This document shows positions 1-39,982 of a stretch of 64,000 nucleotides of DNA, in pieces. The first letter of the stretch is position 1; each line of letters starts with the position of its first letter. A program made the position numbers and the translations under genes. Source of the stretch: Knoellia sp. S7-12 (lineage in GTDB: Bacteria; Actinomycetota; Actinomycetes; Actinomycetales; Dermatophilaceae); assembly GCF_040518285.1 (NCBI RefSeq), contig NZ_CP155449.1, positions 3,162,001-3,226,000 of the forward strand. Direction: 5' to 3'. The notes below the pieces were generated by a model that was not told the DNA's origin, did no database searches, and saw only the letters and a program-made list of their open reading frames with translations.

Positions 1-395
1 TCGGCGCGCTCGGCGTTGTCAGCGAGCCCTTCGAAAAGCACAGCACCGATGAGGGCGCCCTTGAGCGGACCGGACATCCGCTCCCACTCGATGGGCGGTC
101 CGGCGTGGAGGAAGGTGCCGCGTTCGAGGCCGAGGGCGTCCTTGGCCTGCTTCACGTCGCAGAGCTCGGCTCCAGCCGCCGTCAGGCGTGCGTATGCCGT
201 CGCGTTGGCCTCCGCTCGACGTGCGTCAGCCAGGACGGTGGCGAGGTCCGTCTCGGTTCCTGCCATCGGCGGTTGCCAGTCGGCCTCAGTGACGGTGACG
301 GCCTGACCGCGCAGGGCGTCGGCGAACAGCTGGACACCTGCCGTGGCCACGGAGGGCGATTCGACGCAGAGCAGTCCGTGCAGTGGCTGGTTCAT
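1..395 (-). CDS. DUF1116 protein (AllG/YlbE-like), 5' part only
   Basis: The gene runs off the left edge and about 131 N-terminal residues are visible, from an ATG at 395-393. The segment with LHAGPPIEW followed by MSGPLKGALIGA is the pattern I associate with DUF1116 proteins such as E. coli YlbE/AllG. That family works with FdrA and a DUF2877 protein as oxamate carbamoyltransferase, which phosphorolyses oxalurate to oxamate and carbamoyl phosphate. Its start codon overlaps the fdrA stop by 4 nt (ATGA), so the genes are translationally coupled. The real substrate here may differ, since no allantoin genes are visible. Family call is firm; function is by homology. Confidence 0.85.
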   Translation of the reverse strand, partial: MNQPLHGLLCVESPSVATAGVQLFADALRGQAVTVTEADWQPPMAGTETDLATVLADARRAEANATAYARLTAAGAELCDVKQAKDALGLERGTFLHAGPPIEWERMSGPLKGALIGAVLFEGLADNAERA

Positions 396-1885
396 CGAGC
401 TCCTCCGAGGAACGTCAGGGCGTGGCGGGTGGCATCACGGTTGGAGAGGAAGACGGACGCGCCGGCGCCGGAGAGGGTCTGCGCGGTGGCGGCAAAACCC
501 TGCGGGTCGCCCTTGGTGCCCGTGAGGGACACGACGACCGGCAGCTCCCGGCCGCTGTCGCGCGCGGCACCCTTGGCCGCGCGGATCGCGTCGGCCAGCT
601 CGCCAGCCGGGTCCTGATGGGCGCCGAAGCCGAGGACGAGGTCGAGCAACAGCGCGCCACACGTGGGGTCCTGCGCCTCTGCGGCGATGCGCTCCATCCG
701 CAGTGTCGGGTCGATCATCGGGTGCGCCCGCCCCTGGGTCAGACCGTCGTCGCCGAAGTCGATGACGAGGTGCCCGTCGTGCGTGAGACCTGAGCCGAGG
801 GCCAGATCGTCGCGCAGCGGGATGTTGGACCGGATGTCGCCGAGGGACTCCGCGGCGATGAGCATCGCCTCGTCTGCGAGAGTGCCGCCGCAGAACAGTC
901 CGCGCAGACTGCCCAGCCCTGCGCCGGGCTCAGGATCGCTGTCCGACAACCACTTCGGCCATTCCGGCACGTCGTGTCCCTCTGCCTTGAGCACCGCCTC
1001 GAGAGCGGTGGTGAGGTCGGGCCGACCGGCACCGAGCGTGGCCCAACGGACCGGGAGACCCAGGCCGGCGGCATACGCCTCGAGGTCCGTGAGGACCGCC
1101 TCGTCCGGAGGTTTGGAGACGACGACGATGGAGCTCGTGGCGGGGTCCGCTGCGAGTGCCGCCAGCGCCTGTCGGGTCGACCGTCCACCGACAGCCGCCT
1201 TGAGGTCGCGTCCGCCGACCCCGAGGCAGTGTGAGATGCCCACTCCGGCAGCGTCGAGCAGACACATGATCTGTTGGGCGCCCGTGCCCGACGCGGCGAC
1301 GAGCCCCATCGGGCCTGCCTCGACCACGTTTGCGAAGCCGAGGGCGACTCCCCCGACGACTGCCGTGCCACAGTCCGGGCCCATGATGAGGACATCGACC
1401 GCCGCTGCGGCGTCCTTGAGTCGGACCTCGTCCTCGACGGGGACGTTGTCCGAGAAGAGCATCACCGAGGCGCCAGCACCGATGGCATCAAGAGCCTCGG
1501 TGGTCGCGTACCTGCCCGGCACCGAGATGAGCGCGAGCTCCGCTCCCCCCACCCGAACGGCTCCACTGGTGGTGCGCGGCGCGGGGGCATCGCCGAAGCC
1601 ACCGCTGGGCGCTGCCTTCGCGCTGAGGGCGGCGGCGGCCGCCGCGAGGCCTGCTGCGACGGCGTCCTCGTCGACAGCCCGGATTGCCACTACGAGATCG
1701 TTGGGGCCAGCAGCCTCTGGGATCTCGAACCCCATCCCGCTGAGCACCTCGACGTTGAGCTCGGTCGTCATCGCCACCTGCGCAGCCTCGACCCCCTCGA
1801 CGTCGGCGACCGTGCGAGACACCTGGAGCAGCGTCACGGAGTCGTGGTAGGCGCCTCGACGCAGATCGACGTGGGTAATCGTCAC
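392..1885 (-). CDS. fdrA: FdrA-family protein (AllF-like carbamoyltransferase subunit, succinyl-CoA synthetase fold)
   Basis: A 497-residue protein with the CoA-ligase-like architecture of FdrA: an N-terminal segment with STVADVEGVEAA-like sequence, a DVLIMGPDCGTA loop near residue 170, a Rossmann-type SGTGAQQIMCLLDAAGVG segment and a C-terminal ligase-like half with DLVLGFGAHQDPA. Known FdrA proteins are somewhat longer (about 555 residues in E. coli). The start is GTG at 1885, overlapping the upstream DUF2877 stop as GTGA; the stop overlaps the downstream DUF1116 start. With those two genes it forms the set known as oxamate carbamoyltransferase. I infer that in this locus it releases carbamoyl phosphate from an N-carbamoyl amide, possibly ureidomalonate. 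Confidence 0.88.
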   Translation of the reverse strand: MTITHVDLRRGAYHDSVTLLQVSRTVADVEGVEAAQVAMTTELNVEVLSGMGFEIPEAAGPNDLVVAIRAVDEDAVAAGLAAAAAALSAKAAPSGGFGDAPAPRTTSGAVRVGGAELALISVPGRYATTEALDAIGAGASVMLFSDNVPVEDEVRLKDAAAAVDVLIMGPDCGTAVVGGVALGFANVVEAGPMGLVAASGTGAQQIMCLLDAAGVGISHCLGVGGRDLKAAVGGRSTRQALAALAADPATSSIVVVSKPPDEAVLTDLEAYAAGLGLPVRWATLGAGRPDLTTALEAVLKAEGHDVPEWPKWLSDSDPEPGAGLGSLRGLFCGGTLADEAMLIAAESLGDIRSNIPLRDDLALGSGLTHDGHLVIDFGDDGLTQGRAHPMIDPTLRMERIAAEAQDPTCGALLLDLVLGFGAHQDPAGELADAIRAAKGAARDSGRELPVVVSLTGTKGDPQGFAATAQTLSGAGASVFLSNRDATRHALTFLGGAR

Positions 1886-2589
1886 GACGGGATTCCTTCC
1901 GGTAGAGGGGAATTGGCATGGAGCAACACCTGGTCGATGCCTTCGAGGAGACCTGCCCCCGAGGTGTGGCCGATCGCGAGCACGAGCTCACGAGAGGGGC
2001 CTGCGTCGGTGGACCCGGCGACAGCGTGGGTGACGTGGTCGACAACGGAAGACACGGCATACCCGGCGTGCGCGGCAAGGATGAGGGAAGCCGACAGGCT
2101 TGTCGTGCGCCCCACGGGGATCTCGCCCGGCAGGGCGATGCCGAGGGCGCGGGCTGCGAGAAGCGCGCCGCAGAGGACGTCGTCGGCGCGCGGGGTGAGG
2201 CCCTCGCCGCGACCAAGGTCCGCGAGGAGTGGCTGCCAGTCGAACGGTGTGGCGTTCGGAGATGCGGTCGAGACCCGTCGTGGTCGCCAGGAACGAACGA
2301 TGCGTATGCCGTGTGCCGGCAGGGAGATCTCGTCGCCGCCGACGATGACGACGTCGCCGGGTGCCACTCCCCAGTCACGAGGGCTTGGTTCGGCCAGGCG
2401 GACGGCAGTGGGCAGGACAAGGGCATCGCTCGTGACGACGGAAAGGACGTCGGTGTGGGTGGCGCCCTCATCGGAGAGCGCGAGATAGAGCGCCGTGGGG
2501 AACGCGGCGAGCACGACGGCCGGACGGCATGGACCCGCGACGAGGTCGTGAGTGAGCGGGGAGGCCGCGGCCGGAATCGTGGGAAGCAC
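1882..2589 (-). CDS. DUF2877 protein (AllH/YlbF-like)
   Basis: About 235 residues. The C-terminal half (GLTPRADDVLCGALLAARALG and later IGHTSGAGLLEGI) is typical of DUF2877 proteins, the third component of the FdrA/AllG/AllH set. The frame stays open to 2715, but that would cross the pucR promoter. I choose GTG at 2589 because TAGCGT (2602-2597 on the minus strand) lies exactly 7 nt upstream, the leaderless spacing seen repeatedly in this window. First gene of the leftward operon allH-fdrA-allG and divergent from pucR. Catalytic details cannot be read from the sequence. Confidence 0.82.
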   Translation of the reverse strand: MLPTIPAAASPLTHDLVAGPCRPAVVLAAFPTALYLALSDEGATHTDVLSVVTSDALVLPTAVRLAEPSPRDWGVAPGDVVIVGGDEISLPAHGIRIVRSWRPRRVSTASPNATPFDWQPLLADLGRGEGLTPRADDVLCGALLAARALGIALPGEIPVGRTTSLSASLILAAHAGYAVSSVVDHVTHAVAGSTDAGPSRELVLAIGHTSGAGLLEGIDQVLLHANSPLPEGIPS

Positions 2590-2653
2590 CCTTGGAACGC
2601 TAGTCAGCGTGACTACAGTGGCCGGATGGTAAATGTTGCCAACGATCTTGGCG
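2590..2653. promoter_or_regulatory. Divergent allH/pucR promoter region with inverted TGCCAA sites
   Basis: Rightward promoter: TTGGAA (2592-2597), 16-bp spacer, TACAGT (2614-2619), then ATG at 2626, giving a leaderless pucR mRNA. Leftward promoter: TAGCGT at 2602-2597, 7 nt before the allH GTG. An inverted pair TGCCAA-N5-TTGGCG spans 2637-2653 inside the first codons of pucR. The same half-sites occur upstream of other catabolic operons here, so this is a plausible autoregulatory PucR site. Boxes are seen; the binding protein is inferred. Confidence 0.55.
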
Positions 2654-3972
2654 CTCAGGCTCAGCACTTGCCAGCAGAGGTCACGGTGGAGTCGCTGCAG
2701 CGCGTCGTCGACCACCAGGCTGAGCTGCTACGACGCGAGGACGAGGTCAATCGGATCCTCGTGCAGACCGTCCTCACCGGCGGGTCCCTGGCCGACCTTG
2801 GTGAGGCCCTCGTCGGGTTGTTCCCCGGAGTCACTCTTGTGACGACGACGGATGGCCGCATCGTGACCACGGCGGGGTCGGAGGCCGATCGCGAGACCGT
2901 CATGGCACTCGACTGCTTCGACCGCACCGGACGCCTCATCGTCGAGGACGAGCCGGTCGGCGTGCGTGCCGCCGGTGCAGTGAAGTCCGAACGCACGATG
3001 GTGCGGATCGTCGCCGGCACGTCGGACCACGGGCTGCTCGCGGTGTTCACGCCGGGGAGGGTGCTGACCACGACGGACGTGCACGGTTTGGAGCGAGCAG
3101 CCGCGGTCGCCGCACTGGCGATCACCAAGGAGCAGGCTGTCTCTGCGGTCGAGGGCAAGTACCGCGCGGAGTTCCTGCGCGACACCCTCGTCGGTCGAGT
3201 CGGCGCCTCGGAAGAAGCCATCGCCCACGCCGCATCGTTGGGCTGGACCCTTGATCGCCGCATGGTCGTCGTCGTCGCCGAGACCGATGAGGACGACGCG
3301 CACACCACTCGCGATGGTGACGAACTGCGTTCTCTCCAGGAGCGATTCGTCCGTGCTTGGGTGCAGGCAGTGCGGACCCGGGAGCCCAAGGCGCCGGTCG
3401 CCGGCTTCTCACAGGAGGTCGTCGCACTCCTGCCAGCACCCTGCGTTGGTGACAGTGAGCAGGAGACCGTGATGCGCGCTGTGGGCGAGGTCGTCAAGGT
3501 CGTGCGGGGTGACGGCGGCGGCGGTCGGCGGACGTTCTCGACCGGCGTCTCACGGCCGGTGGACTCCGTGGCCGACATCCCCCGGGCCTATGCCGAGGCA
3601 CTGCGTGCGGTGGCTGTGGGGCGGCAGATGCAGGGCGAGTCGGCGGTCATGCACTTCGACGGGCTCGGCATCTATCGGCTGCTCTCGCTCATCCCCGACA
3701 CAGCCGACCTGCGGGCGTTCGTTGACGAGGCACTGCGTGAACTGGCCACCGATGCGCAGCCGTCCTATGCCGACCTGCGCCAGACGTTGCAGGTGCTGCT
3801 CGACACCAACCTCAACGTCGCCGAGACGGCCCGGGTCCTCTTCTTTCACTACAACACGCTGCGCTATCGCATCACCAAGCTCGAGCAGATGCTCGGACCC
3901 TTCACGAGCGACCCCCAGCTGCGCCTCACCCTGTCACTGGCCCTGCGGATCAGGCAGATGCGCGGGGTCTGA
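2626..3972 (+). CDS. pucR: PucR-family transcriptional regulator
   Basis: 448 residues. The C-terminal segment (roughly residues 385-445) carries the PucR helix-turn-helix pattern: LLDTNLNVAETARVLFFHYN, then TLRYRITKLEQMLG. The N-terminal two thirds form a sensor region with a PucR-like central domain (residues around 180-330). The frame is open from 1918, but ATG 2626 sits 6 nt after a TACAGT -10 box and gives a family-like N-terminus. PucR regulators control purine and other nitrogen-source catabolism, often in response to pathway intermediates. Its position opposite allH-fdrA-allG and upstream of the permease and molybdenum enzyme genes suggests it controls nucleobase breakdown. The effector cannot be read from sequence. 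Confidence 0.9.
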   Translation: MVNVANDLGAQAQHLPAEVTVESLQRVVDHQAELLRREDEVNRILVQTVLTGGSLADLGEALVGLFPGVTLVTTTDGRIVTTAGSEADRETVMALDCFDRTGRLIVEDEPVGVRAAGAVKSERTMVRIVAGTSDHGLLAVFTPGRVLTTTDVHGLERAAAVAALAITKEQAVSAVEGKYRAEFLRDTLVGRVGASEEAIAHAASLGWTLDRRMVVVVAETDEDDAHTTRDGDELRSLQERFVRAWVQAVRTREPKAPVAGFSQEVVALLPAPCVGDSEQETVMRAVGEVVKVVRGDGGGGRRTFSTGVSRPVDSVADIPRAYAEALRAVAVGRQMQGESAVMHFDGLGIYRLLSLIPDTADLRAFVDEALRELATDAQPSYADLRQTLQVLLDTNLNVAETARVLFFHYNTLRYRITKLEQMLGPFTSDPQLRLTLSLALRIRQMRGV

Positions 3973-14842: not shown

Positions 14843-14900
14843 TCCTTCTATCCACGATGACGTGGTCCCCGGAAGCGCCCCACTGAGGAAGGCAACACAC

Positions 14901-16367
14901 ATGGCTCTCGGACTTGGTTGGAAGCTGAAAGAGGGCACGCTCGGACCCGACGACGTCGTCGCCCCGCACGAACGGCTCGACTGGGGACGCACCGTTGGTC
15001 TCGGCGCACAGCACGTCGTCGCGATGTTCGGTGCGACCTTCGTCTTCCCGCTGATCATGGGCCTCAACCCGCAGCTCGCCATCATGATGAGCGGCATCGC
15101 GACCATCGCGTTCCTCCTCATCGTCCAGGGCCGCGTGCCCAGCTATCTCGGCACGTCCGCCGCGTTCGTCGGTGGCGTCGCCGCGATCCGCACGCAAGGT
15201 GGCGACTCGTCCGAGGTCACCGGCGCGATCCTCGTTGCCGGTGTCGTCCTGGCCCTCGTGGGTGTGGCGATCCACTTCCTCGGCTCGAGCATCCTGCACA
15301 AGGTGCTGCCGCCCGTCGTCACCGGCGCCGTCGTCATGCTCATCGGATTCAACCTGGCGCCCGTCGTCGCCAACATCTACTGGCCGCAGGACCAGTGGGT
15401 CGCGCTCCTCACGATGCTGTTCGTCATCGTCTGCGCGGTCGCGTTCAAGGGCTTCATCAGCCGGATTGCGATCTTCCTCGCACTCATCTTCGGAACGCTG
15501 CTCTCGTGGTTGCTCGACCAGGTGTTCGGTCCCATCACGTCCGTCCTCGGCGGCGCCACCGAGGCGACCGAGCACGTCCGTTGGAACACGGCAGGCATCG
15601 GTGACGCCTCCTGGTTCGGCTTCCCGGCCAAGACGGTCTTCAACGCCGACGGCACCGACGTGGCAGGCTGGCACACCCCGACCTTCTCGACCTTTGCGAT
15701 CCTGCTCGTCCTCCCCGCCGTCATCGCCCTCATCGCCGAGAACACCGGCCACGTCAAGGCCGTCGCCGAGATGACCGGCGCCGACCTCGACAAGGACATG
15801 GGTCGCGCGATCGCGGCAGATGGTGTCGGCACGATCCTCGCGTCCTCCGTCGGTGGCTCGCCCACGACGACCTACGCGGAGAACATCGGCGTCATGGCGG
15901 CCACCCGCGTCTACTCGACCGCGGCCTACTACGTCGCCGCGATCGTTGCGATCGTCTTCGGCCTCTCCCCCAAATTCGGTGCTCTGGTCGCCTCCGTCCC
16001 CGGTGGGGTTCTCGGCGGCATCACGGTCGTGCTCTACGGGATGATCGGCCTGCTCGGCGCCAAGATCTGGAAGGAGAACGGGGTCGACTTCGCGAACCCG
16101 ATCAACCTCGTTCCCGTTGCGGCCGGCATCGTCATCGGCATCGGTGACGTCAAGCTGAAGTTCAGCGACGACTTCACCCTCAGCGGCATTGCCCTCGGCA
16201 CGATCGTCGCGATCGGCGCCTACCACCTGGCGCGCGCACTCGCCCCGTCCGACCTGCGCGAGCGCGCGGATGGCGGGGGTGGCGCGGGCGGCACGGCCAT
16301 CGCCACCGGTGACCGCGTCTATGGCGACGAAGACGGCATCGACGACCTCTACCAGAACAAGCACTGA
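14901..16367 (+). CDS. NCS2 family uracil/xanthine permease
   Basis: 488 residues with about 12-14 membrane segments. The N-terminus (GLGAQHVVAMFGATFVFPLIMGLNPQLA) and VGGSPTTTYAENIGVMAATRVYS are the hallmark motifs of NCS2 nucleobase transporters: the first holds the QH pair and the second the NATxF-like region. ATG 14901 is preceded by GAGGAAGG. It heads an operon with a three-subunit molybdenum hydroxylase only 17 nt downstream, so the imported base is probably that enzyme's substrate. NCS2 proteins carry uracil, xanthine or uric acid; the barbiturase homologue nearby favours uracil/thymine. Confidence 0.9.
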   Translation: MALGLGWKLKEGTLGPDDVVAPHERLDWGRTVGLGAQHVVAMFGATFVFPLIMGLNPQLAIMMSGIATIAFLLIVQGRVPSYLGTSAAFVGGVAAIRTQGGDSSEVTGAILVAGVVLALVGVAIHFLGSSILHKVLPPVVTGAVVMLIGFNLAPVVANIYWPQDQWVALLTMLFVIVCAVAFKGFISRIAIFLALIFGTLLSWLLDQVFGPITSVLGGATEATEHVRWNTAGIGDASWFGFPAKTVFNADGTDVAGWHTPTFSTFAILLVLPAVIALIAENTGHVKAVAEMTGADLDKDMGRAIAADGVGTILASSVGGSPTTTYAENIGVMAATRVYSTAAYYVAAIVAIVFGLSPKFGALVASVPGGVLGGITVVLYGMIGLLGAKIWKENGVDFANPINLVPVAAGIVIGIGDVKLKFSDDFTLSGIALGTIVAIGAYHLARALAPSDLRERADGGGGAGGTAIATGDRVYGDEDGIDDLYQNKH

Positions 16368-16384: not shown

Positions 16385-17275
16385 GTGAAGCCCGCTCCTT
16401 TCAGGCACCACGCGCCACTCACCCTCGACGAGGCCATCGCAACCTTGAGTGAAGTGGGCCATGACGGCAAGGTCCTCGCCGGAGGGCAAAGCCTCATCCC
16501 CGTCCTCAACATGCGGCTCGCCCAACCGGCGCATCTCGTCGACATCAACCGCGTCGCCGCCCTCGACACCGTGACCATCACCGACACCCACGTCCGCGTC
16601 GGTGCAACCGTGCGTCACGCTGTCCTGCAAAAACACGACGAGGCGTATGCCGTCCTGCCGGTTCTCCGTCAGGCATTGCGGAACGTGGCCCATCCGGCGA
16701 TCCGCAACCGCGGCACGACCGTGGGCTCGATCGCCCACGCGGACGCCGCCGGTGAGATGCCGTCGATCGCGGTGCTGACCGACGCCGTCATGGAGATCGC
16801 CGGTCCCCGCGGGCGACGCGAAGTGGCGGCCGCGGACTTCTTCGAGGGCCCCCTGCAGACAGTGCTCGAGGCGGACGAGCTGCTCGAGGCGGTGCGCTTT
16901 GGTCGGTTCGGTGCCTCAACACGGACGGCCTTCCTCGAATCGGCCCGTCGTCACGGTGACTATGCCCTGGCCGGTGTCGGCGTGGCCGTCGACCTGGACG
17001 GGCAGGGTCGCGACGCGGTCGTGCGCCGTGCGCGCGCAGCATACGTCTCCGTCACCGACATCCCAGTTGTCATCGATCTCACCGAAGCCGTTGCGGGACA
17101 GTCGATCTCGTCGCTCACAGCAGGTCCTTCCGCCTTGGAAGCGGTTGAGGAACTCGTCCAGGCAGGCATCGCGCCGGAGGCCGACATCCACGCCACCAGC
17201 GAGTACCGCCGGATGCTCGCCGCCGAGCTCACTCGGCGCGCGCTCACCCTGGCCACGACCGAGGAGGACGCATGA
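16385..17275 (+). CDS. Molybdenum hydroxylase FAD-binding subunit (CoxM/XdhB-like)
   Basis: 296 residues, GTG start. The two FAD motifs are present: AGGQSLIPVLNMRLAQP (residues about 32-48) and NRGTTVGSIAHADAAGEMP near residue 105. The C-terminal CO-dehydrogenase flavoprotein domain follows. It passes electrons from the Fe-S subunit to an acceptor. It overlaps the next gene by 4 nt (ATGA) and belongs to the permease operon. Rhodococcus uracil/thymine dehydrogenase is reported to be a three-subunit enzyme of this kind, which fits the context here. Confidence 0.92.
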   Translation: MKPAPFRHHAPLTLDEAIATLSEVGHDGKVLAGGQSLIPVLNMRLAQPAHLVDINRVAALDTVTITDTHVRVGATVRHAVLQKHDEAYAVLPVLRQALRNVAHPAIRNRGTTVGSIAHADAAGEMPSIAVLTDAVMEIAGPRGRREVAAADFFEGPLQTVLEADELLEAVRFGRFGASTRTAFLESARRHGDYALAGVGVAVDLDGQGRDAVVRRARAAYVSVTDIPVVIDLTEAVAGQSISSLTAGPSALEAVEELVQAGIAPEADIHATSEYRRMLAAELTRRALTLATTEEDA

Positions 17276-26300: not shown

Positions 26301-28427
26301 ATGGCGCAGCGACGAATCAGGATCGGGATCGACACGGGCGGGACGTTCACCGACGTCGTGGCGTTCGACGAGGACTCTGGTGAGCTCGTCACGACCAAGA
26401 CGCCGAGCACGCCGAGCAATCCGGCGGACGGATTCATCAACGGCATCGAGAAGGTCCTCGGTCTGATGCAGGCGAGCGGCGACGACATCACCGCCGTCTG
26501 CCACGGGACGACCGTCGCGACCAACAAGCTCCTCGAGGGCAAGGTCGAGCAGCTCGGGTTCATCACGACGCAGGGCTACGAGTTCATGCTCGAGATCGCT
26601 CGCCAGGCGGTGCCCGACGGCTATGGCAACTCCTACTTCTGGGTGAAGCCTCCTCGCATCGTCGCCGCCGACCACGTCCGGACGGTGGGCGGGCGCATGG
26701 ACTTCGAGGGCAACGAGATTCGCCCGTTCGATGAGGAGAGCGCGACCGTTGCTGCCCGCTGGTTCAAGGAGCGCGGCATCACGACGATCGGGGTCTGTTT
26801 CCTGCATTCGTATGCCGCCGACGACCACGAGTTGCGGATGCGCGAGATCCTGCGTCGCGAGCACCCCGACGCCATCGTGTCGATCTCGAGTGAGGTGCTG
26901 CGTGAGTACCGCGAGTACGAACGGTCGATGACGACACTCGTCGACGCCGCCGTGAAGCCGAACGTCAGCCGCTATGTGAGCAACATCCACAGCCGGCTCG
27001 AAGGCTTCACCGGCGGGTCCGGACGCGAGATCCCCTTCTACATCATGAAGTCCAACGGGGGCGTCCTCTCGGCGGATGAGGTTGTGCACCAGCCCATCAC
27101 CACCGTGCTGTCAGGTCCGGCGGCCGGCGCCCTCGGTGCAGCGCTCATCGCGCAGAAGGCGGGCTTCGACAAGGTGCTCACATGTGATGGCGGCGGCACC
27201 TCGACCGATGTCTCCGTGGTCCTCGACGGCGAGCCGACGCTCACGACCGAGGGCACCGTCGGCGCCTACCCGAGCAAGATCCCGATGATCGACGTCGTGA
27301 CTGTGGGCGCCGGCGGCGGCTCCATCGCGTGGGTCTCCCCCGAGGGCGCGCTCAAGGTCGGACCTCATTCGGCCGGCGCGGACCCGGGTCCGCTCTGCTA
27401 CGGCAAGGGCGGCCCGGAAGGTGGCCTGCCCACGATCACCGACGCCCAGCTCGTCCTGGGTCGCATCCCTCCGCACCTGCTCGGCGGCGAGATCCCACTC
27501 GATGTCGAGGCTGCTCGGAACGGCATCGAGGCACTGGCCGACCGGCTCGGACTCGACTTCGAGCGTTGTGCCACAGGCATTCTCGAGATCTCGGCCTGGA
27601 ACCAGGCCAACGCCCTGCGGCAGGTGAGCGTCAAGCGCGGGCTCGACGTCCGTGACTTCATGCTCACGACGTTCGGTGGGTCCGGCTCGCTGCTCGCCTG
27701 CCTGCTCGTGGACATCCTCGACCTCGCCGGGGTGGTTGTCCCGCAGAACCCGGGCAACGTCAGTGCCTTCGGCCTGCTCACCGTCGACGTGAAGAACGAC
27801 TACGTCCAGACGCAGGTTGCCAAGCAGTCAGCCCTCGACCACGCGGCGATCGAGAAGACGTTCACCGGGCTCACCGAGCGCGCCGCTGCCGCGCTCGACA
27901 AGGAAGGCTTCGCCCGCTCCGAGCACCAGTTCACGCGCACGGTCGACCTGCGCTACTTCGGTCAGGCCTACGAGGTGCGCGTCCTGGCGCCCGCTGACGC
28001 GCCGGTGAACGATGCGTATGCCGCACAGGTCGCCGAGGCGTTCCACGACGCCCACAACCAGCTCTATGGCTACGACTTCCGGAGCGACCCGACCCAACAG
28101 GTCGAGTGGGTCAACCTCCGCGTCACCGGCGTCGGTCCCATCACGCGACCCGAGCTCACCCGACACGACCCCCCGGGATGGTGGGCGCTTGCGGACCCGC
28201 CCCACCGCCAAGTCTGCTTCGACGCCGACGAAGGTTACCTACCGACGCCCATCATCAACCGGACCGACCTCATGGCCGAAGTGCGCCTGACCGGCCCGGC
28301 GATTATTGAAGAGTTCGGATCCACGGTGCCCGTCCACCCCGGTTTCGAGGTCCGTGTCGACGAGTACCTCAACCTCGTCATCACCAAGGTCGCCACGGTG
28401 ACCGCGGCAACAGAGGATGCGCGATGA
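26301..28427 (+). CDS. hyuA: HyuA: hydantoinase/oxoprolinase A subunit
   Basis: 708 residues. ATPase-fold motifs are clear: GIDTGGTFTDVVAFD at residues about 8-22, HGTTVATNKLLEGK near 73, and DGGGTSTDVSVV near 295. HyuA/HyuB enzymes cleave cyclic amides such as hydantoins or 5-oxoproline at the cost of ATP. ATG 26301 has no Shine-Dalgarno, so it may be leaderless. It overlaps hyuB by 4 nt (ATGA). In this nucleobase context a cyclic ureide or imide is a reasonable substrate; which one cannot be told. Confidence 0.92.
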   Translation: MAQRRIRIGIDTGGTFTDVVAFDEDSGELVTTKTPSTPSNPADGFINGIEKVLGLMQASGDDITAVCHGTTVATNKLLEGKVEQLGFITTQGYEFMLEIARQAVPDGYGNSYFWVKPPRIVAADHVRTVGGRMDFEGNEIRPFDEESATVAARWFKERGITTIGVCFLHSYAADDHELRMREILRREHPDAIVSISSEVLREYREYERSMTTLVDAAVKPNVSRYVSNIHSRLEGFTGGSGREIPFYIMKSNGGVLSADEVVHQPITTVLSGPAAGALGAALIAQKAGFDKVLTCDGGGTSTDVSVVLDGEPTLTTEGTVGAYPSKIPMIDVVTVGAGGGSIAWVSPEGALKVGPHSAGADPGPLCYGKGGPEGGLPTITDAQLVLGRIPPHLLGGEIPLDVEAARNGIEALADRLGLDFERCATGILEISAWNQANALRQVSVKRGLDVRDFMLTTFGGSGSLLACLLVDILDLAGVVVPQNPGNVSAFGLLTVDVKNDYVQTQVAKQSALDHAAIEKTFTGLTERAAAALDKEGFARSEHQFTRTVDLRYFGQAYEVRVLAPADAPVNDAYAAQVAEAFHDAHNQLYGYDFRSDPTQQVEWVNLRVTGVGPITRPELTRHDPPGWWALADPPHRQVCFDADEGYLPTPIINRTDLMAEVRLTGPAIIEEFGSTVPVHPGFEVRVDEYLNLVITKVATVTAATEDAR

Positions 28428-30358
28428 ACACGGCTGGCCTGCCCACGGCATACGAGCACGGAAAGCGCCTCACCGAGCCCGGAAGCACGGTTGACCCGAT
28501 CCTCGTCGAGATCGTCCAGGGCACTCTCGCGAGCGTCGAGATGGAGGTCGAGACCGCGATCGCCCGCACTTCCCGCTCCCCCATGATCCGCGACGCGCAC
28601 GACTTCCGCGCCGGCATTCACGACCGCCAGTTGCGCAAACTCACCGGCCGTTCCTACTCGGCGCTCGTGCACCCGATCGTGCGCGACTTCCCGTTGGAGG
28701 AGATGGTCGAGGGCGACGTCTTCTTCCACAACGACGTCTATGAGTCCGAGGGCGGCATCGGCCACCTGCCCGACCTCTGCGTCACGGTTCCAGTCTTCCA
28801 CGAGGGCACAGTCGTCGCGTTCGTCCAGGCGTTCGGTCACCACGACGACATCGGCGGTGCAGTCCCGGGATCCATGCCGAGCAACGCCACGAGTGTGCAC
28901 GAGGAGGGACTGTCTGTCCCGCCGATCAAGTTGTGGGACAGGGGAGTTCCCAACAAGGCTGCCTTGCGGATCATGACCCGCAACTCGCGCATGCCGGACA
29001 GCCTCGCCGCCGACCTCGACGCCGAGTGCTCCGCCTGCCTCATGGGGGCGCGACGCCTCTCGGATCTCTTCACGCGCTACGGACGCGACGACATCGAGAC
29101 CGCCTTCGACGCGATCCTCGACAGCACCACCGAGACCTACCGGCGCGAGATCCTCAGCAAGATCCCTGAGGGCACCTACGTCTGGGAGGACTACGCCGAG
29201 CACGACGGCGTCGACCAGCCCAGGCTCCACACGCAGCGGATCACCCTGACCAAGGTCGATGACGCGCCAGCCGACCCGGAGACCAACTTCCTCGGCGGTG
29301 CGCGGTTGATCGTCGACTTCACCGGGACGGCGCCGCAGGCCAAGGGGCCGATCAATCACTGCGGCGACTACGTCGGTGGCAACTTCCTCAAGAAGTGGCT
29401 CGCGCCGATCCTGCGCAACCTCGCGGACACCCCCGAGCGCATGGCCGAGCTCGACGTCAACGAGGGCATCGTGCCGCTCATCGAGATGCGCTTCCCCGAG
29501 AAGGGCACGCTGCTCACCCCGATCTATCCGGCGCCCACCAACGCACGCACCTTCGTCATCCTGCGGTTGCTCGGCGTGCTTGCCGGTGTCGTCGCGAAGG
29601 CCGTCGACGGCCAGATGCCGGCCGACCAGGAAACGATCCGCTACACGGGCGTCTACGGCAAGGACCGGGACGGCAACGACTACCTCATGCGCGAGGTCCT
29701 GGGAGGCGGCTCGGGAGGGCGCTACTACGCCGACGGTGAGGACACCATCCACGTCGTCCCCGACTCCCGCAATCTCCCGACGGAGTTCACCGAGTCACGC
29801 TTCCCGTTCATCGTCGAGCGGCTCGGGCTGGCGGTGGATTCCGGTGGTGCGGGCCGCTATCGGGGCGGCCTGGGCTACGAGAAGCAGATAAGGATGCTCC
29901 AGGACGCCCACTTCATGTCGATCGCCGACCGCTCGATCCTCGCGTGTTGGGGACTCAAGGGCGGCAAGGCGGGTATGCCGTTCAGTGTCGTCATCGATCC
30001 CGGCGGTCCGCAGGAGCGCGAGGTCGACGCCTTGGCCGACTCCGAACCGGTCCGTGCCGGTCAGCTGATCCGTATTCGCACTACGGGTGGCGGCGGCTGG
30101 GGCGACCCGCTCGAGCGTCCTCTCGACGAGGTCGAACGGGACCTCACCTGGGGCAAGGTGTCGCTGGAAGGTGCGCGGACGGCATACGGCGTCGTGGCCT
30201 CTGGCGGCAAGGACGACGTGAGCATCGACGTCGCGGCGAGCGAGGCGCTGCGAGAGCAGCTGCGGCAAGAGCGCGGCGACGAGCCGTTCTTCGACCGCGG
30301 ACCCGGCTACGCCCAACTCGCCCAGGGCGCCCGCGCCAGTGAGTACGACTGGATGTGA
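28424..30358 (+). CDS. hyuB: HyuB: hydantoinase/oxoprolinase B subunit
   Basis: 644 residues. Matches the HyuB family: DPILVEIVQGTLASVEMEVETAIARTSRSPMIRD at the start, GHHDDIGGAVPGSMP near residue 140 and the C-terminal RIRTTGGGGWGDPLERP. HyuB is slightly longer than many homologues (500-600 residues). Works as a complex with HyuA. Translationally coupled to it. Confidence 0.92.
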   Translation: MNTAGLPTAYEHGKRLTEPGSTVDPILVEIVQGTLASVEMEVETAIARTSRSPMIRDAHDFRAGIHDRQLRKLTGRSYSALVHPIVRDFPLEEMVEGDVFFHNDVYESEGGIGHLPDLCVTVPVFHEGTVVAFVQAFGHHDDIGGAVPGSMPSNATSVHEEGLSVPPIKLWDRGVPNKAALRIMTRNSRMPDSLAADLDAECSACLMGARRLSDLFTRYGRDDIETAFDAILDSTTETYRREILSKIPEGTYVWEDYAEHDGVDQPRLHTQRITLTKVDDAPADPETNFLGGARLIVDFTGTAPQAKGPINHCGDYVGGNFLKKWLAPILRNLADTPERMAELDVNEGIVPLIEMRFPEKGTLLTPIYPAPTNARTFVILRLLGVLAGVVAKAVDGQMPADQETIRYTGVYGKDRDGNDYLMREVLGGGSGGRYYADGEDTIHVVPDSRNLPTEFTESRFPFIVERLGLAVDSGGAGRYRGGLGYEKQIRMLQDAHFMSIADRSILACWGLKGGKAGMPFSVVIDPGGPQEREVDALADSEPVRAGQLIRIRTTGGGGWGDPLERPLDEVERDLTWGKVSLEGARTAYGVVASGGKDDVSIDVAASEALREQLRQERGDEPFFDRGPGYAQLAQGARASEYDWM

Positions 30359-32940: not shown

Positions 32941-34116
32941 GTGACCGGACCCCTGCAGGACCTCACCGTCGTCGACCTCTCACGAGCTCTCGCCGGCCCC
33001 CATGCCGCGATGATGCTGGGAGACATGGGTGCTCGCGTCATCAAGGTCGAGAGCCCCGGCACCGGTGACGACACCCGCGGCTGGGGACCGCCTTTCGTCG
33101 GTCCCGAGGACGACCCCATCTCGACCTACTTCCTCGCAGCCAACCGCAACAAGGAGTCGATCACCCTCGACCTCAAGTCCGACGACGGCCGCGACGTCCT
33201 GACCAAGCTCGTGCAGCGCTCCGACGTCCTCATCGAGAACTTCCGCCCGGGCGTCCTCGACCGCCTCGGCTTCACCGTCGAGCGGCTCCAAGAGCTCAAC
33301 CCGCGCCTCGTCGTCCTCGCGATCAGCGGGTTCGGCCACGACGGGCCCCAGGGTGGTCGCGCCGGCTACGACCAGATCGCCCAGGGCGAGGCGGGCCTCA
33401 TGTCGGTCACGGGACCCAGTGCTGACGAACCCACCCGCATCGGCGTCCCCATCGGCGACCTGCTCGCCGGCATGTATGGCGCCTACGGAGTCGTCTCCGC
33501 CCTCCACGAGCGCAACACGACCGGCAAGGGTCGGGTGGTCCGCACGAGTCTGCTCGCAGCGGTCGTCGGCGCACACGCCTTCCAGGGCACGGCATACACG
33601 GTCGCTGGTCACGTCGGGCACGCCCAGGGCAACCACCACCCGGCGCTCTCGCCCTACGGACTGTTCCACTGCGAGGACGGAGACATCCAGATCGCGTGCG
33701 GCTCCGAGTCGCTCTGGGTCACGCTCGCGGAGGGCTTCAGCATCGACCCCAGGACCCCCGGTCTCGCCACCAACCGCGAACGCGTCGCCCACCCCGACCT
33801 CGTCCGCTCGAGGCTCAACAGCGCCTTCTCGACGTGGCGCCTCGACGACCTCCTCCCCCGCCTCGCGGAGCTCGGCATCCCCTCAGGCGAGGTCCGGACC
33901 ATCGACCGGGTCTATGACTGGGACCAGACCCGCTCGCAAGGACTCGTCCTCGATGTCGACCACCCGGTCCTCGGGTCCATCGAGATCCCCGGTCCGCCGA
34001 TCCGCCTTGACGACAACGCTTTTGCTGGCGGACGTGAGACGCACCTCGCTCCTCCCACGCTCGGCCAGCACAACGACAGTGTGCGGGCGTGGCTCGCCGA
34101 GGAGGACCCGTCATGA
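32941..34116 (+). CDS. CaiB/BaiF family CoA-transferase
   Basis: 391 residues; GTG start with AAAAGGAG upstream. Family III CoA-transferase pattern: LTVVDLSRALAGPHAAMMLGDMGARVIKVESPGTGDDTRGWGPPF, IENFRPGVLDRLGF and LVVLAISGFGHDGP. The Asp in a G-x-P-x-x-D-x-x-A-like region (GVPIGDLLAGMYGA) is the usual catalytic residue. Substrate is not readable; with the next gene it could activate malonate to malonyl-CoA. Translationally coupled to the carboxyltransferase-like gene (ATGA). Confidence 0.9.
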   Translation: MTGPLQDLTVVDLSRALAGPHAAMMLGDMGARVIKVESPGTGDDTRGWGPPFVGPEDDPISTYFLAANRNKESITLDLKSDDGRDVLTKLVQRSDVLIENFRPGVLDRLGFTVERLQELNPRLVVLAISGFGHDGPQGGRAGYDQIAQGEAGLMSVTGPSADEPTRIGVPIGDLLAGMYGAYGVVSALHERNTTGKGRVVRTSLLAAVVGAHAFQGTAYTVAGHVGHAQGNHHPALSPYGLFHCEDGDIQIACGSESLWVTLAEGFSIDPRTPGLATNRERVAHPDLVRSRLNSAFSTWRLDDLLPRLAELGIPSGEVRTIDRVYDWDQTRSQGLVLDVDHPVLGSIEIPGPPIRLDDNAFAGGRETHLAPPTLGQHNDSVRAWLAEEDPS

Positions 34117-35669
34117 CCGCCACGCCCAGCGACCCCGGCAAGCCAGCCACGCCCTCCCGCCCCACGTCCGCTGAGCTCATCGCCGCAGTCCTCGACGACG
34201 GCATCTGGCAGTCCTGGGACGAGCGGCCGCTCGCTGTGGCCGAACCCGACAGCCTTTATGCCGCAGAGCTCGCCGCCGCTGCCGAGAAGGCCGGCACGGA
34301 CGAGTCCATCGTCACCGGGGAGGGCCGGATCGGCGGCCACCGGGTCGCTGTCATCGCCGGGGAGTTCCGCTTCATGGCCGGCTCGATCGGGGTCGCCGCG
34401 GCCGAACGCATCGTCCTCGCGTTCGAGCGGGCCACCGAGGAACGACTGCCGCTCTTCGCTGCGCCCGCATCGGGTGGCACCCGCATGCAGGAGGGCACGC
34501 CCGCGTTCGTGACGATGGTCAAGATCTCGGCTGCCGTGGCGGCCTACAAGCGGGAACACCTGCCCTACATCACCTACCTGCGCCACCCCACGACTGGCGG
34601 GGTGTTCGCCTCGTGGGGCTCACTCGGCCATGTCACAGTGGGCGAGCCGGGTGCCACGATCGGCTTCCTCGGCGCCCGCGTCTACGAAGCGCTCTACGGT
34701 CAACAGTTCCCCGATGGCGTCCAGACCGCTGAGAACCTCTTCGCCCACGGGCTGCTCGACGCCGTCCTCCCCGTCGAGCTGCTCACCGAGACCGCGGCGC
34801 GCTTCCTCGACCTCGTCCTCGCTCCTCACGACAGCAAGCCCGCCCCCGAGGTCCCCCGCGAGCAGCTCCCCGACATCGCTGCTTGGGAGTCAATCCTGTT
34901 GTCCCGCAAACCCTCTCGCCCCGGAGTGCGCGCCCTGCTCAAGCTCGGCGCCACCGACGTGCTGCCCCTCTTCGGCACCGGTGCGGGCGAATGGGACCGG
35001 TCGTTGTTCCTCGCGCTCGCCCGCTTCGAGGGCACGCCCTGCGTCGTCCTGGGTCAGGACCGCCGGGGCGAGCAGACCGAAGCACCTCTCGGTCCGTCCG
35101 GACTTCGCGTCGCTCGGCGCGGCATGAAGCTCGCCACCGAGCTCAACCTGCCCCTCGTGAGCATCATCGACACGGCCGGCGCGGCACTGTCCAAGGAGGC
35201 CGAGGAGGGTGGCATGGCCGGCGAGATCGCCCGGTGCCTGTCAGAGCTCGTCGTCCTCGACGTTCCCACCGTCTGCGTCCTGCTCGGTCAGGGCACGGGC
35301 GGCGGCGCACTTGCCCTCATGCCCGCCGACCGCGTCATCAGCGCCCAGCACTCGTGGCTCTCTCCGCTCCCGCCGGAGGGCGCCTCCGCGATCCTCCATC
35401 GCACCCCCGATCGAGCACCCGAGCTCGCCGAACGCCAACGGGTCCGATCCCTCGACCTCCTCGAGGACGGGATCATCGACCGCATCGTCGCCGAGCGCCC
35501 GGACGCCTCTCAGGAACCAGAAGCCTTCTGCCAACGGATGGGTCAGGCGATCCGCCACGAGCTGGCCGAGCTCTCCGAGGTCGAACCCACCCAGCGCCTC
35601 ACCGACCGGCACACGCGATACCGCCAACTCGGTCGTGGCAGCGGTCCTACGCTGAAGCGTGGCGTCTGA
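34113..35669 (+). CDS. AccD-AccA-like carboxyltransferase fusion
   Basis: 518 residues. Residues about 60-240 match the AccD half (FRFMAGSIGVAAAERI, SGGTRMQEG, PTTGGVFASWGSLG) and about 270-470 the AccA half (IIDTAGAALSKEAEEGGMAGEIA, GQGTGGGALALMPADRV, SPEGAS-like PPEGASAILH). The Cys4 zinc ribbon of AccD is absent; no Cys precedes residue 300. No biotin or biotin-carboxylase genes are nearby. Proteins of this shape can run in reverse as decarboxylases (compare MdcD/E); malonyl-CoA decarboxylation is a reasonable guess after the CaiB enzyme. Confidence 0.82.
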   Translation: MTATPSDPGKPATPSRPTSAELIAAVLDDGIWQSWDERPLAVAEPDSLYAAELAAAAEKAGTDESIVTGEGRIGGHRVAVIAGEFRFMAGSIGVAAAERIVLAFERATEERLPLFAAPASGGTRMQEGTPAFVTMVKISAAVAAYKREHLPYITYLRHPTTGGVFASWGSLGHVTVGEPGATIGFLGARVYEALYGQQFPDGVQTAENLFAHGLLDAVLPVELLTETAARFLDLVLAPHDSKPAPEVPREQLPDIAAWESILLSRKPSRPGVRALLKLGATDVLPLFGTGAGEWDRSLFLALARFEGTPCVVLGQDRRGEQTEAPLGPSGLRVARRGMKLATELNLPLVSIIDTAGAALSKEAEEGGMAGEIARCLSELVVLDVPTVCVLLGQGTGGGALALMPADRVISAQHSWLSPLPPEGASAILHRTPDRAPELAERQRVRSLDLLEDGIIDRIVAERPDASQEPEAFCQRMGQAIRHELAELSEVEPTQRLTDRHTRYRQLGRGSGPTLKRGV

Positions 35670-36867: not shown

Positions 36868-36889
36868 ATCACCGAAGGAAGGCACTCCG

Positions 36890-37732: not shown

Positions 37733-37756
37733 GTGCGTGAACTGCCCTGCGACACC

Positions 37757-37853
37757 TGCCAAACGGGAGGGCGTCGCCTGTCAGGTGATGCCAACGCCGG
37801 ACCGCAGCCGTCTCCCTAGGCTCGCGGCAACGGCATACCGACGGGGTATGCCG
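37757..37853 (+). promoter_or_regulatory. Carbamate kinase promoter region and hairpin
   Basis: TGCCAA at 37757 and 37789, -10 TAGGCT at 37817-37822 in the 10-mer CCTAGGCTCG shared with the caiB promoter. CGGCATACC (37831-37839) and GGTATGCCG (37845-37853) form a 9-bp hairpin in the leader, 9 nt before the Shine-Dalgarno GGAGGTGA (37863-37870). Confidence 0.5.
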
Positions 37854-37874
37854 GCCGGTCCCGGAGGTGAGCGC

Positions 37875-38816
37875 GTGCGAGTTCTCGTAGCACTCGGCGG
37901 CAATGCCATGACCTCGCCCGAGGGGTCGGCGCACCCTGCCGACCAGGTGCGGGCCATCACCGAGGCGATGGAGCACGTCGCCGAGCTGGTCGCCGCCGGG
38001 CACGAGGTCGTCCTCACCCACGGCAACGGCCCCCAGGTGGGCAACCTCCTCGTCAAGAACGAGCTGGCTGCCCAGGTCGTCCCGCCCGTGCCACTGGATT
38101 GGTGCGGCGCGCAGACGCAGGGGACGATCGGCTTCACGATGCTGGACGCGCTCGAGCCAGCGCTTGCTCGTCGCGGGGTCGCGCGCCCGGTTGCAGCCCT
38201 CGTGACTCGGACCCTCGTCGACGCCGACGATCCCCATTTCCGCGAACCCAGCAAGCCGATCGGTCGCTACCTGCCGGCTGCCGAGGCGCAGCAGATGATC
38301 GAGCACGGCCAGCACTGGGAGGACCGCGGCGACAAGGGGTGGCGCCGCGTCGTGGCGTCGCCGGAGCCGCGCGAAGTCCTCGACCTGCCCGCCATCCGCG
38401 CCCTCGTCGACGCTGGCCAGGTCGTCGTCGCGGCCGGTGGCGGCGGCATCCCGGTCGTCCGCGAGTCAGACGGAGCCCTGCGTGGCGTCGAGGCCGTCAT
38501 CGACAAGGACCTCACCGCAGCGTTGCTCGCCGAGGCGCTGGCCTGCGACATCCTCATCATCGCCACTGACGTCGACCACGCGATGGTCGACTACGGCACG
38601 CCGGACGAGCGTCCGCTCGAGTTCACCTCGCTCGCCCAGATGCAGGCGTATGCCGCAGCCGGCCAGTTCACGTCCGGCTCGATGGGTCCCAAGGTCGACG
38701 CCGCGATGCGCTTCGCCGAGTCAGGCGGCCGAAGCATCATCACCTCACTCGCCCACATCACCGACGCCGTCGAGCGAGAGTTCGGCACGGTCATCGACAC
38801 GAGCCCAGAAGATTGA
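37875..38816 (+). CDS. arcC: Carbamate kinase
   Basis: 313 residues, the usual family length. GTG 37875 is chosen for its GGAGGTGA Shine-Dalgarno 4 nt upstream; ATG 37848 falls inside a hairpin. Motifs of the amino-acid kinase fold are clear: [36 protein letters not shown] and [10 protein letters not shown], plus [12 protein letters not shown]. It converts carbamoyl phosphate and ADP to ATP, CO2 and ammonia. No arginine deiminase genes are nearby. Its likely source of carbamoyl phosphate is the FdrA/AllG/AllH set, and the downstream barbiturase homologue fits this. Confidence 0.95.
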
Positions 38817-38839
38817 CCCCTCCACAGAAAGGTCCAGCC

Positions 38840-39982
38840 GTGCCAGAAGCCATCGAGGTCCGCAAGGTTCCGCTCCACAGTGTCTCCGACGCCTCCGAGC
38901 TCGCGAAGCTCATCGACGACGGGGTGATGGAGGCAGGCCGCGTCATCGCCATCATCGGCAAGACCGAGGGCAACGGTGGGGTCAACGACTACACCCGGAT
39001 CATTGCGGACCGGGCCTTTCGTGAGGTGCTCATCGAGAAGGGCGCACCGGCCGACCAGGTCAAGCAGGTGCCCATCGTCTGGTCGGGCGGAACCGATGGC
39101 ATCATCAGCCCGCACGCCACGATCTTTGCGACCGTCCCGGCCGACAAGGCGGAGCAATCCGACGAGCCACGACTCACCGTCGGCTTCGCCATGAGCGAAG
39201 CGATTCTCCCCGAGGAGATCGGCTACGTCGGCATGGTCACCAAGGTCGCCGACGCCGTGAAGGTCGCCATGGAGCGCGCCGGGATCACCGACCCCGCCGA
39301 CGTTCATTACGTGCAGACCAAGACGCCGCTGCTGACGATCCACACCATCCGTGATGCGAAGTCACGTGGGCAAAAGGTCTGGACCGAGCACACGCACGAG
39401 TCGATGGACCTCTCCAACGGCACGACCGGACTCGGCATCGCCGTGGCACTCGGCGAGATCGAGATGCCGACCGACGAGGACGTCATGCACAACCGGTCGC
39501 TGTTCTCCGCAGTAGCCTCCTGCTCCTCAGGCGTCGAGCTCGACCAGGCGCAGGTCGTCGTCGTCGGCAACGCTCGCGGGGTCGGTGGCCGCTATCGCAT
39601 CGGCCACTCGGTCATGCGCGACGCCCTCGACGCCGACGGCATCTGGGAGGCCATCAAGGACGCCGGTCTCGAACTGCCCGACCGCCCCCACACCAGTGAC
39701 ATCAAGGGTCGGCTCGTCAACGTCTTCCTCAAGTGCGAGGTGAGCCAGGACGGCCAGGTCCGTGGCCGGCGCAACGCGATGCTCGACGACTCCGACGTCC
39801 ACTGGCACCGCCAGATCAAGGCGACCGTCGGTGGCGTCACCGCGTCAGTGACCGGAGACCCGGCCGTGTTCGTGTCAGTCTCGGCCGCTCACCAAGGCCC
39901 CGACGGTGGCGGCCCCGTGGCAGCAATCATCGACCTCGGCGAAGGCGAGCCCACTGGCTACGCCGCCCCCGGCGCCCCCTAG
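38840..39982 (+). CDS. Barbiturase/cyanuric acid hydrolase-family ring-opening amidase
   Basis: 380 residues; GTG 38840 with GAAAGG upstream, 23 nt after carbamate kinase. The family has three Ser-Lys dyads: K41 ([14 protein letters not shown]) with S82 ([12 protein letters not shown]), K161 (VQTKTPLL) with S229/S230 (ASCSSGVE), K298 (FLKCEV) with S348 ([15 protein letters not shown]). Members open barbiturate (to ureidomalonate) or cyanuric acid. From memory the N-terminus resembles Rhodococcus barbiturase, and the linked permease, molybdoenzyme and carbamoyl-phosphate genes favour barbiturate. Cyanuric acid is the alternative and cannot be excluded by eye. Confidence 0.85.

Follow-up and report, generated by a model that had tools for sequence, protein, structure and literature searches.

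Why does a barbiturase gene lie among genes for a three-subunit carbamoyltransferase (AllFGH, with FdrA as AllF) and a carbamate kinase (ArcC)? The question is raised by a 64,000-nucleotide stretch of Knoellia sp. S7-12 (the window; contig NZ_CP155449.1, G000:C1:3162001-3226000, from a genome of 4.16 Mb in one contig; G and L numbers below denote genomes and loci). The original prediction, made from the letters of the window, had joined these genes into an oxidative pyrimidine pathway that recovers adenosine triphosphate (ATP). Our analysis makes it likely that the cluster encodes such a variant of the oxidative pyrimidine pathway, with AllFGH phosphorolysing ureidomalonate and ArcC recovering ATP. 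Many actinobacteria carry a gene cluster of this kind, which probably breaks down uracil with ATP recovery where the Rhodococcus route, by means of ureidomalonase, releases urea without recovering ATP. We know of no other oxidative pyrimidine route that has been described. A literature search, which covered few subscription journals and did not pair the words 'barbiturase' and 'FdrA', brought up no paper in which barbiturase is linked to AllFGH or to carbamate kinase.

In the proposed scheme, an NCS2 permease would import uracil, a molybdenum (Mo) hydroxylase would oxidise it to barbiturate and barbiturase would open the barbiturate ring to give ureidomalonate, the last of these being the best-founded step. 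From ureidomalonate and phosphate, AllFGH would then form malonamate and carbamoyl phosphate; with adenosine diphosphate, the latter would be turned by ArcC into ATP, NH3 and CO2. The last nitrogen would be freed by an amidase, nitrilase-type in the window and GatA-type in relatives, that turns malonamate into malonate and NH3, and a CaiB-type coenzyme A (CoA) transferase and an AccD-AccA fusion (AccDA) would carry malonate through malonyl-CoA to acetyl-CoA. AllFGH, ArcC and the amidase would together replace the urea-forming ureidomalonase of Rhodococcus. We infer all of these reactions from sequence, above all the action of AllFGH on ureidomalonate, for which the grounds are homology to oxamic transcarbamylase, whose substrate is one CH2 shorter, and the contrast with Rhodococcus-type genomes.

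The ring opener and its partner genes

The ring opener is assigned as a barbiturase, despite its NCBIfam name. In phmmer searches it scored 685 bits against 5hwe ('Barbiturase') and at most 325 bits against solved cyanuric acid amidohydrolases. It was 83% identical to 5hwe over 373 residues, and the closest named barbiturases were those of Janibacter sp. HTCC2649 (97% identical) and Knoellia aerolata (96%). The barbiturase signature (group VI of the AtzD/barbiturase family, AtzD numbering) is Asn195, His321, Lys325, Val345 and Ser/Ala346 (PMC3758960, Peat 2013). All five residues were present in the window protein (N202, H332, K336, V356 and S357), and none of the five cyanuric acid hydrolase residues (Arg195, Thr321, Arg325, Gly345 and Gly346) was. 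Among 99 aligned rows of the family, which come partly from the same genomes, 79 read NHKVS, 13 NHKVA and one NYKVS, and 92 fitted N-H-K-V-S/A; the six rows that fell off the barbiturase branch had RTRGG (two), NHKGG (two), NYKGG (one) and NPKGG (one). The barbiturase-family call of the original prediction was thus upheld by the PF09663 match (Table 1), the identity to 5hwe and the full specificity signature.

If the enzyme were instead a cyanuric acid hydrolase, the cluster would degrade s-triazines, and the NCBIfam cyanuric acid amidohydrolase model did give the window protein 470.5 bits against a cut-off of 360. However, the signature and the phmmer scores both pointed the other way, no biuret or allophanate hydrolase match was found among the cluster genes scanned, and the genomes with a PF09663 protein outside the barbiturase group mostly lacked AllG; we regard such a function as very improbable. 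At L150 (G147 C1 493153-513152), L167 and L165, the PF09663 proteins carried mixed signatures, NYKGG or NHKGG, which are half of the barbiturase and half of the cyanurate type. The one at L150 has as neighbours a GatA-type amidase, a homologue of CaiB and a gene resembling GntR. These proteins possibly act on a third ring substrate.

All three AllFGH subunits were present at the locus, as the original prediction had stated, although allG is represented in the window by no more than its first 395 bases. The full gene (genome 3160989-3162395) lies mostly outside the window, and its family match was at G000:C1:3161334-3161975. Identity to the E. coli AllF/G/H/K proteins was 38% for FdrA, 47% for AllG, 34% for AllH (over 137 residues of YlbF) and 41% for ArcC. 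FdrA fell below its NCBIfam cut-off (Table 1), and its best solved match was 'Protein fdrA' (3dmy, 226.5 bits). ArcC scored just below the cut-off of TIGR00746 (346.8 bits; cut-off 358.25) and above that of NF009007 (307; cut-off 266), placing it in the carbamate kinase family.

ArcC was found no more than 10 kb from barbiturase in 79 of 80 related loci. Within the same distance were HyuB (58), HyuA (49), CaiB (44), the Mo-hydroxylase large subunit (21) and AccDA (19); these counts are minima, as the stretches reach 10 kb or less per side. When 43 genomes chosen from the 80 loci were searched, all contained AllG, and in 39 it lay by coordinates within 60 kb of barbiturase, the same contig being assumed. 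In a sample of 297 genomes of the order, 22 contained both PF09663 and AllG, none PF09663 only, seven AllG only and 268 neither. AllG was therefore present in 22/22 PF09663 genomes versus 7/275 of the others, and was linked to barbiturase within 60 kb in 19 of the 22. The association was just as close in a sample of 393 genomes of the class, which shares genomes with the order sample: 82 had PF09663, of which 76 were barbiturase-type (score above 455 bits, plus one split copy) and six were not, 12 had AllG without PF09663, and 299 had neither. AllG was detected in 75 of the 76 barbiturase-type genomes, spread over 14 family groups, and in one of the six others, where it was of another type. 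Of these 75 AllG matches, 73 exceeded 300 bits; G356 scored 262 (partial) and G380 scored 202 (another type). In 43 of the 75 genomes AllG lay within 60 kb of barbiturase, in eight farther away on the same contig and in 24 on other contigs. The co-occurrence of barbiturase with AllG, often with physical linkage, was thus borne out in both samples. The sampled genomes are related, so that the counts are not independent events, and the class-sample figure is so clean because that sample holds no Rhodococcus-type barbiturase.

The gene content of the cluster was compared in 18 linked relatives, that is, genomes other than our own with AllG and barbiturase on one contig no more than 60 kb apart. 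PucR, NCS2, the three Mo-hydroxylase subunits (M, S and L), CoxG, AllG, FdrA, ArcC and barbiturase were each matched in 18/18. HyuA and HyuB followed with 17 each (HyuA of the 18th relative was found after its stretch was extended), then CaiB with 15, the nitrilase-type amidase (Nit) with 13, AllH of our own type with eight and AccDA with seven. The own AllH found only those eight by tblastn, indicating that AllH diverges fast. In the AllG tree, the cluster sequences grouped on a single branch (100/100) that was separate from E. coli AllG and was broken by one row with a very long branch.

AllF/AllG also adjoined ArcC in seven PF09663-free genomes (G243, G246, G256, G341, G468, G433 and G579; L143, L144, L145 and L169-L172). 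AllG at these loci was 45-51% identical to the window AllG, and at L143, L144 and L145 a GntR-like regulator stood beside AllF/AllG and ArcC.

AllFGH-ArcC and amidase modules are mutually exclusive next to barbiturase

A search with 5hwe in 391 genomes of another family matched 42, of which 22 were at least 90% identical and five 99-100% identical. The label 'Rhodococcus-type' is based on the 99-100% identity to 5hwe, on Peat group VI, on the Rhodococcus names of the nearest amidases and on what we take to be the source organism of 5hwe. Of these Rhodococcus-type genomes, 19 of 22 lacked AllG. Among the three that contained it, the G702 protein (342 bits) fell in the cluster branch, and those of G910 and G942 (251 bits or less) were of another type. 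In G771, G904 and G758, whose barbiturases were 99-100% identical to 5hwe, NCS2, Mo-hydroxylase, CoxG, HyuAB, CaiB, AccDA and PucR were found nearby, no match to ArcC, FdrA, AllG or Nit was found in 40-60 kb, and an amidase-signature protein followed barbiturase. The same neighbours were found in G873 over a wider stretch. CaiB and AccDA adjoined barbiturase in 14 of 20 fetched Rhodococcus-type genomes, and G702 carried ArcC and AllFGH with a GatA-type amidase. One sequence source gave the name 'ureidomalonase', on an unstated basis, to 11 proteins (61-69% identical) out of the 120 amidase relatives listed. At L191 (1026-2519), the amidase gene directly follows a barbiturase 100% identical to 5hwe and is a candidate for the R. 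erythropolis ureidomalonase gene. The barbiturases of the sampled genus g122 were 80-83% identical to 5hwe, and a plasmid search for a copy of the Rhodococcus barbiturase gave a best match of 71.6%.

We then compared 69 loci. The order sample supplied 22, the class sample 25 (chosen from its 76) and the Rhodococcus-type genomes the other 22, which came from 21 of the 22 genomes. The latter set omits G932 (a fragment), and the stretch of G632 narrowly misses its barbiturase. Cluster-type AllG was assigned by a score above 300 bits, with G356 (262, partial) included, and part of these proteins are in the AllG tree. Where cluster-type AllG was present, ArcC was immediately upstream of barbiturase in 42/46 loci and a ureidomalonase-family amidase was beside it in 0/46, the window locus included. 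Where cluster-type AllG was absent, the amidase was found in 20/23 loci, ArcC in one (G380, a fragmented assembly) and neither in two (G508 and G737); the annotation of G508 showed no obvious enzyme downstream of barbiturase. The AllFGH-ArcC module and the amidase module are therefore mutually exclusive next to barbiturase. AllG and ArcC are present or absent jointly in this pattern, and most loci that lack them have a potentially urea-forming amidase instead. This contrast in the other family indicates two alternative endings after barbiturase, which probably feeds either AllFGH and ArcC, with phosphorolysis and ATP, or ureidomalonase, with hydrolysis and urea. In the tree built from barbiturases, copies of the amidase type formed a group with G702 and G737 (100/99) that was nested in the AllFGH type. 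This nesting suggests a derived origin for the Rhodococcus arrangement, the AllFGH type having come first, with modest support on the next branch (89/77) and a midpoint root.

The replacement pattern also bears on the use of AllFGH for allantoin. FdrA, AllG, AllH and ArcC are homologous to E. coli AllF/G/H/K, the regulator is PucR-type, and our own genome encodes both uricase (C1:3760142) and allantoinase (C1:3774847). AllFGH and ArcC could then be used for oxalurate that derives from allantoin, the role they have in E. coli, with barbiturase as a neighbour in a general nucleobase region. The absence of uricase and allantoinase noted in the original prediction holds within the window, where neither was matched, and not for the genome, in which both lie about 560-575 kb from barbiturase. 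Accordingly, no linkage of AllFGH to allantoin genes was found, AllD included. AllD makes oxalurate in E. coli (PMC12535856); it was over its cut-off in 0/36 genomes, with weaker matches in 11/36. No uricase match was found in 13 of the 22 order-sample barbiturase genomes, and no allantoinase over the cut-off in 11, showing, together with the AllD count, that allantoin does not explain AllFGH. AllG was rare in the order-sample genomes without PF09663, the cluster AllG branch was separate from E. coli AllG, and AllG and ArcC were missing where a ureidomalonase-family amidase adjoined barbiturase. Allantoin as the sole use of AllFGH was rejected on the uricase, allantoinase and AllD distribution and on the loss of AllG in amidase-type genomes, and we regard the oxalurate explanation as a whole as unlikely.

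Uracil oxidation, HyuAB and the standing of the pathway

The Mo-hydroxylase large subunit matched quinoline 2-oxidoreductase (456 bits) better than CoxL (407) and xanthine dehydrogenases (about 160 or less) among solved proteins; it was thus not closer to CoxL than to N-heterocycle hydroxylases, as would be expected of an aerobic carbon monoxide (CO) dehydrogenase. NF040766 (CO dehydrogenase) nevertheless matched it over the cut-off. Systematic misnaming by NCBIfam models is therefore likely, of barbiturase as cyanuric acid amidohydrolase and of the Mo large subunit as CO dehydrogenase, and the cluster flags such genes. The same Mo-hydroxylase accompanied both barbiturase cluster types, the AllFGH type and the Rhodococcus type. 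The papers returned by one literature search pointed to no gene for uracil/thymine dehydrogenase.

For the later steps, 1f89 (yeast YLR351C) and nitrilase homolog 2 were among the top three solved matches of the CN-hydrolase, at 101 bits or less; we take these two to be omega-amidases. In 19 of the 80 other loci the cluster included a GatA-type amidase, which occupied the CN-hydrolase position in four of the five examined for it. Malonate, the expected product of this step, is a reported product of the Rhodococcus pathway (PMC3758960).

Several observations weigh against the phosphorolytic, ATP-recovering pathway proposed here. HyuAB is as conserved as the other core genes yet has no place in the scheme, and there would be no net gain of ATP if its substrates were the same molecules. 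In two genomes (G082 and G195), AllFGH, ArcC, the Mo-hydroxylase and HyuAB are retained, but no PF09663 protein was matched anywhere. In G891, an amidase-type genome with barbiturase, amidase and PucR, no NCS2, Mo-hydroxylase or HyuAB match was found in 40 kb, which slightly lowered our confidence. ArcC was not beside barbiturase in four of the 46 cluster-type loci (G331, G049, G292 and G609), being located elsewhere in the first three, near AllG or HyuAB. Nit was present in 13/18 linked relatives and AccDA in 7/18. The closest relatives of the Rhodococcus-type amidase, from Rhodococcus, were named 'amidase' only and not ureidomalonase among the 120 listed. Uricase was found in 9/22 and allantoinase over the cut-off in 11/22 of the order-sample barbiturase genomes, our own included. 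E. coli AllFGH is reported with oxamate and oxalurate, and the string 'malon' is absent from the available text of that paper (PMC11326118). Nitrifiers carry AllFGH beside biuret/triuret genes (PMC12625717), indicating that the context of AllFGH is not fixed. On balance, the joined barbiturase-AllFGH-ArcC route drew support from co-occurrence, linkage, the separation of the AllG clade and the replacement pattern, and it was weakened by the unplaced HyuAB and the 7/18 for AccDA.

The HyuA/HyuB family performs ATP-dependent ring opening. The window HyuA had N-methylhydantoinase (7hk5, 467 bits) as its best match, and we favour the idea that HyuAB opens the thymine product or another oxidised ring. 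This would extend the ATP-recovering pathway to two rings rather than replace it: barbiturase would open barbiturate, HyuAB would spend ATP on opening a further oxidised ring (a hydantoin, or the 5-methylbarbiturate derived from thymine), AllFGH would phosphorolyse both ureido acids, and for the HyuAB substrate ArcC would merely repay the ATP spent. The extension as a whole is tentative. The distribution of HyuAB fits it, since the pair was present in 17/18 linked relatives and in four of the five Rhodococcus-type genomes with wide stretches (G771, G904, G758 and G873), as does its retention with AllFGH and ArcC in G082 and G195. These two genomes may reflect a single loss of barbiturase or a HyuAB able to open the ring; however, they are near-copies (mostly more than 90% identical), so that one loss explains both, and no HyuAB match lay within 40 kb of the G891 barbiturase. 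The clusters of G082 (L152 with L142) and G195 (L153 with L147) also carried XdhC-, CoxE-, CoxD- and MocA-like genes.

The broadest version of the proposal, which we consider doubtful, is a widespread actinobacterial route for uracil and thymine. The Mo-hydroxylase would produce barbiturate and 5-methylbarbiturate, barbiturase and ATP-dependent HyuAB would open these rings, and the separate-clade AllFGH would be a (methyl)ureidomalonate phosphorylase giving carbamoyl phosphate and ATP. This route would be the commoner and older one, with the Rhodococcus ureidomalonase as a later replacement for AllFGH, ArcC and the amidase.

Should the ATP-recovering pathway be true, pyrimidine catabolism would gain an ATP-recovering branch and the AllFGH carbamoyltransferase family a second substrate. 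The Rhodococcus route would then be one of two interchangeable endings, and candidate genes would be at hand for the first step, uracil/thymine dehydrogenase.

Features of the locus and comparison with known systems

Family searches confirmed the NCS2 permease, the three-subunit Mo-hydroxylase, the nitrilase-type amidase, the CaiB-type protein, the AccD-AccA fusion and the carbamate kinase named in the original prediction (Table 1). Its inventory had omitted the HyuA/HyuB pair (26301-30358) and the PucR-type regulator. The PucR open reading frame (ORF) overlaps allH, indicating that its true start is probably after 2715. The cluster is flanked by purH (window 40418-42070, minus strand) on one side and on the other by a folD-like gene (L002 17899-18966, minus strand), recognised by eye.

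Table 1. Genes of the barbiturase cluster, in window positions
Feature	Position	Strand	Basis
allG, oxamate carbamoyltransferase subunit AllG	1..395 (first 395 bases)	-	PF06545, 316 bits
fdrA/allF, carbamoyltransferase subunit AllF	392..1885	-	PF00549; NF004760 391.9 bits (below cut-off of 433)
allH, carbamoyltransferase subunit AllH	1882..2715	-	PF11392, 53.4 bits
PucR-type regulator, long ORF	1918..3972	+	PF13556 and PF17853 in C-terminal half
NCS2 permease, probable pyrimidine importer	14862..16367	+	PF00860; RutG 356 bits, xanthine permease 166, both below cut-offs
Mo-hydroxylase flavin adenine dinucleotide (FAD) subunit (M)	16385..17275	+	family match; 18/18 linked relatives
Mo-hydroxylase 2Fe-2S subunit (S)	17272..17814	+	family match; 18/18 linked relatives
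Mo-hydroxylase large subunit (L), candidate uracil (thymine) dehydrogenase making barbiturate	17811..20243	+	
CoxG-like protein	20240..20869	+	PF06240
CN-hydrolase (Nit), candidate malonamate (omega-) amidase	20869..21801	+	PF00795
HyuA, hydantoinase/oxoprolinase-type subunit	26301..28427	+	PF01968/PF05378
HyuB, HyuA partner	28424..30358	+	PF02538
CaiB-type CoA-transferase, candidate malonate CoA-transferase	32941..34116	+	PF02515; all NCBIfam matches below cut-off
AccD-AccA fusion, candidate malonyl-CoA decarboxylase	34089..35669	+	PF01039/PF03255; all NCBIfam matches below cut-off
Carbamate kinase ArcC	about 37848..38816	+	start set by alignment; ORF opens at 37401
Barbiturase	38813..39982	+	PF09663, 475 bits (cut-off 25)

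The pathway genes of the predicted span (392..39982) are real, but the span is not made up of cluster members throughout. Three glycosyltransferases and an ABC (ATP-binding cassette) exporter lie at 4069-9609, and the glycosyltransferases were rejected as pathway parts because they were matched in 0/18 (GTa), 1/18 (GTb) and 0/18 (GTc) linked relatives. The two-component system (histidine kinase and response regulator) was set aside with 2/18. A Gig2-like protein (PF07350, 12165-13475) and a ROK regulator (13585-14739) precede the NCS2 permease and were found in 3/18 linked relatives. At 25561-26192 lies what is presumably an antitoxin-like and PIN-type-like gene pair; the same pair occupies the equivalent place in G189 and G326. 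ORFs 31123-31650 and 31191-31754 gave no family match, and ORF 36775-37740 is in the wrong frame, 36857-37732 being methyltransferase-like by reading only. By reading, a GuaD-like deaminase lies near NmrA and PadR in the cluster of four genomes of one genus (G161, G189, G257 and G326; L095, L096, L099 and L102). Although the deaminase gene is present in these four relatives, tblastn found no match to it in the window.

Among known systems, the oxidative pyrimidine pathway of R. erythropolis (uracil/thymine dehydrogenase, barbiturase and ureidomalonase) is the nearest. The window barbiturase belongs to the same group, with its 83% identity to 5hwe, and the NCS2, Mo-hydroxylase, CoxG, HyuAB, CaiB and AccDA neighbours are common to the three genomes with 99-100% 5hwe barbiturases. 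The two differ after barbiturase: the Rhodococcus type has a ureidomalonase-family amidase there and no ArcC beside it, whereas the window type, which lacks that amidase beside barbiturase, has AllFGH, ArcC and a nitrilase-type amidase. N-methylhydantoinase, of the HyuA/HyuB family, is akin to the window HyuA, and the window pair is a regular partner of the Mo-hydroxylase/barbiturase cluster.

The oxamate branch of allantoin degradation in E. coli has a carbamoyltransferase homologous to that of the window, likewise of three subunits and paired with a carbamate kinase (PMC11326118, PMC12535856). However, the E. coli AllFGH genes lie with allB, allC, allD and allE and the window genes with barbiturase and the Mo-hydroxylase; the presumed window substrate is one CH2 longer than that of E. 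coli AllFGH, and the AllG branches are separate. Urease-negative enteric bacteria have AllFGH genes, and urease-positive Klebsiella is reported to lack them (PMC11326118). In reductive urate degradation, a phosphorolytic carbamoyltransferase with a carbamate kinase (YgeW/YqeA) serves in some species and a hydrolase (UacY) in others (PMC12507026). That system belongs to another pathway with another substrate, and E. coli AllFGH is reported to show no resemblance to the transcarbamylase family of which YgeW is a member (PMC11326118). The swap of YgeW/YqeA for UacY is nonetheless a published precedent for the exchange of phosphorolysis and hydrolysis.

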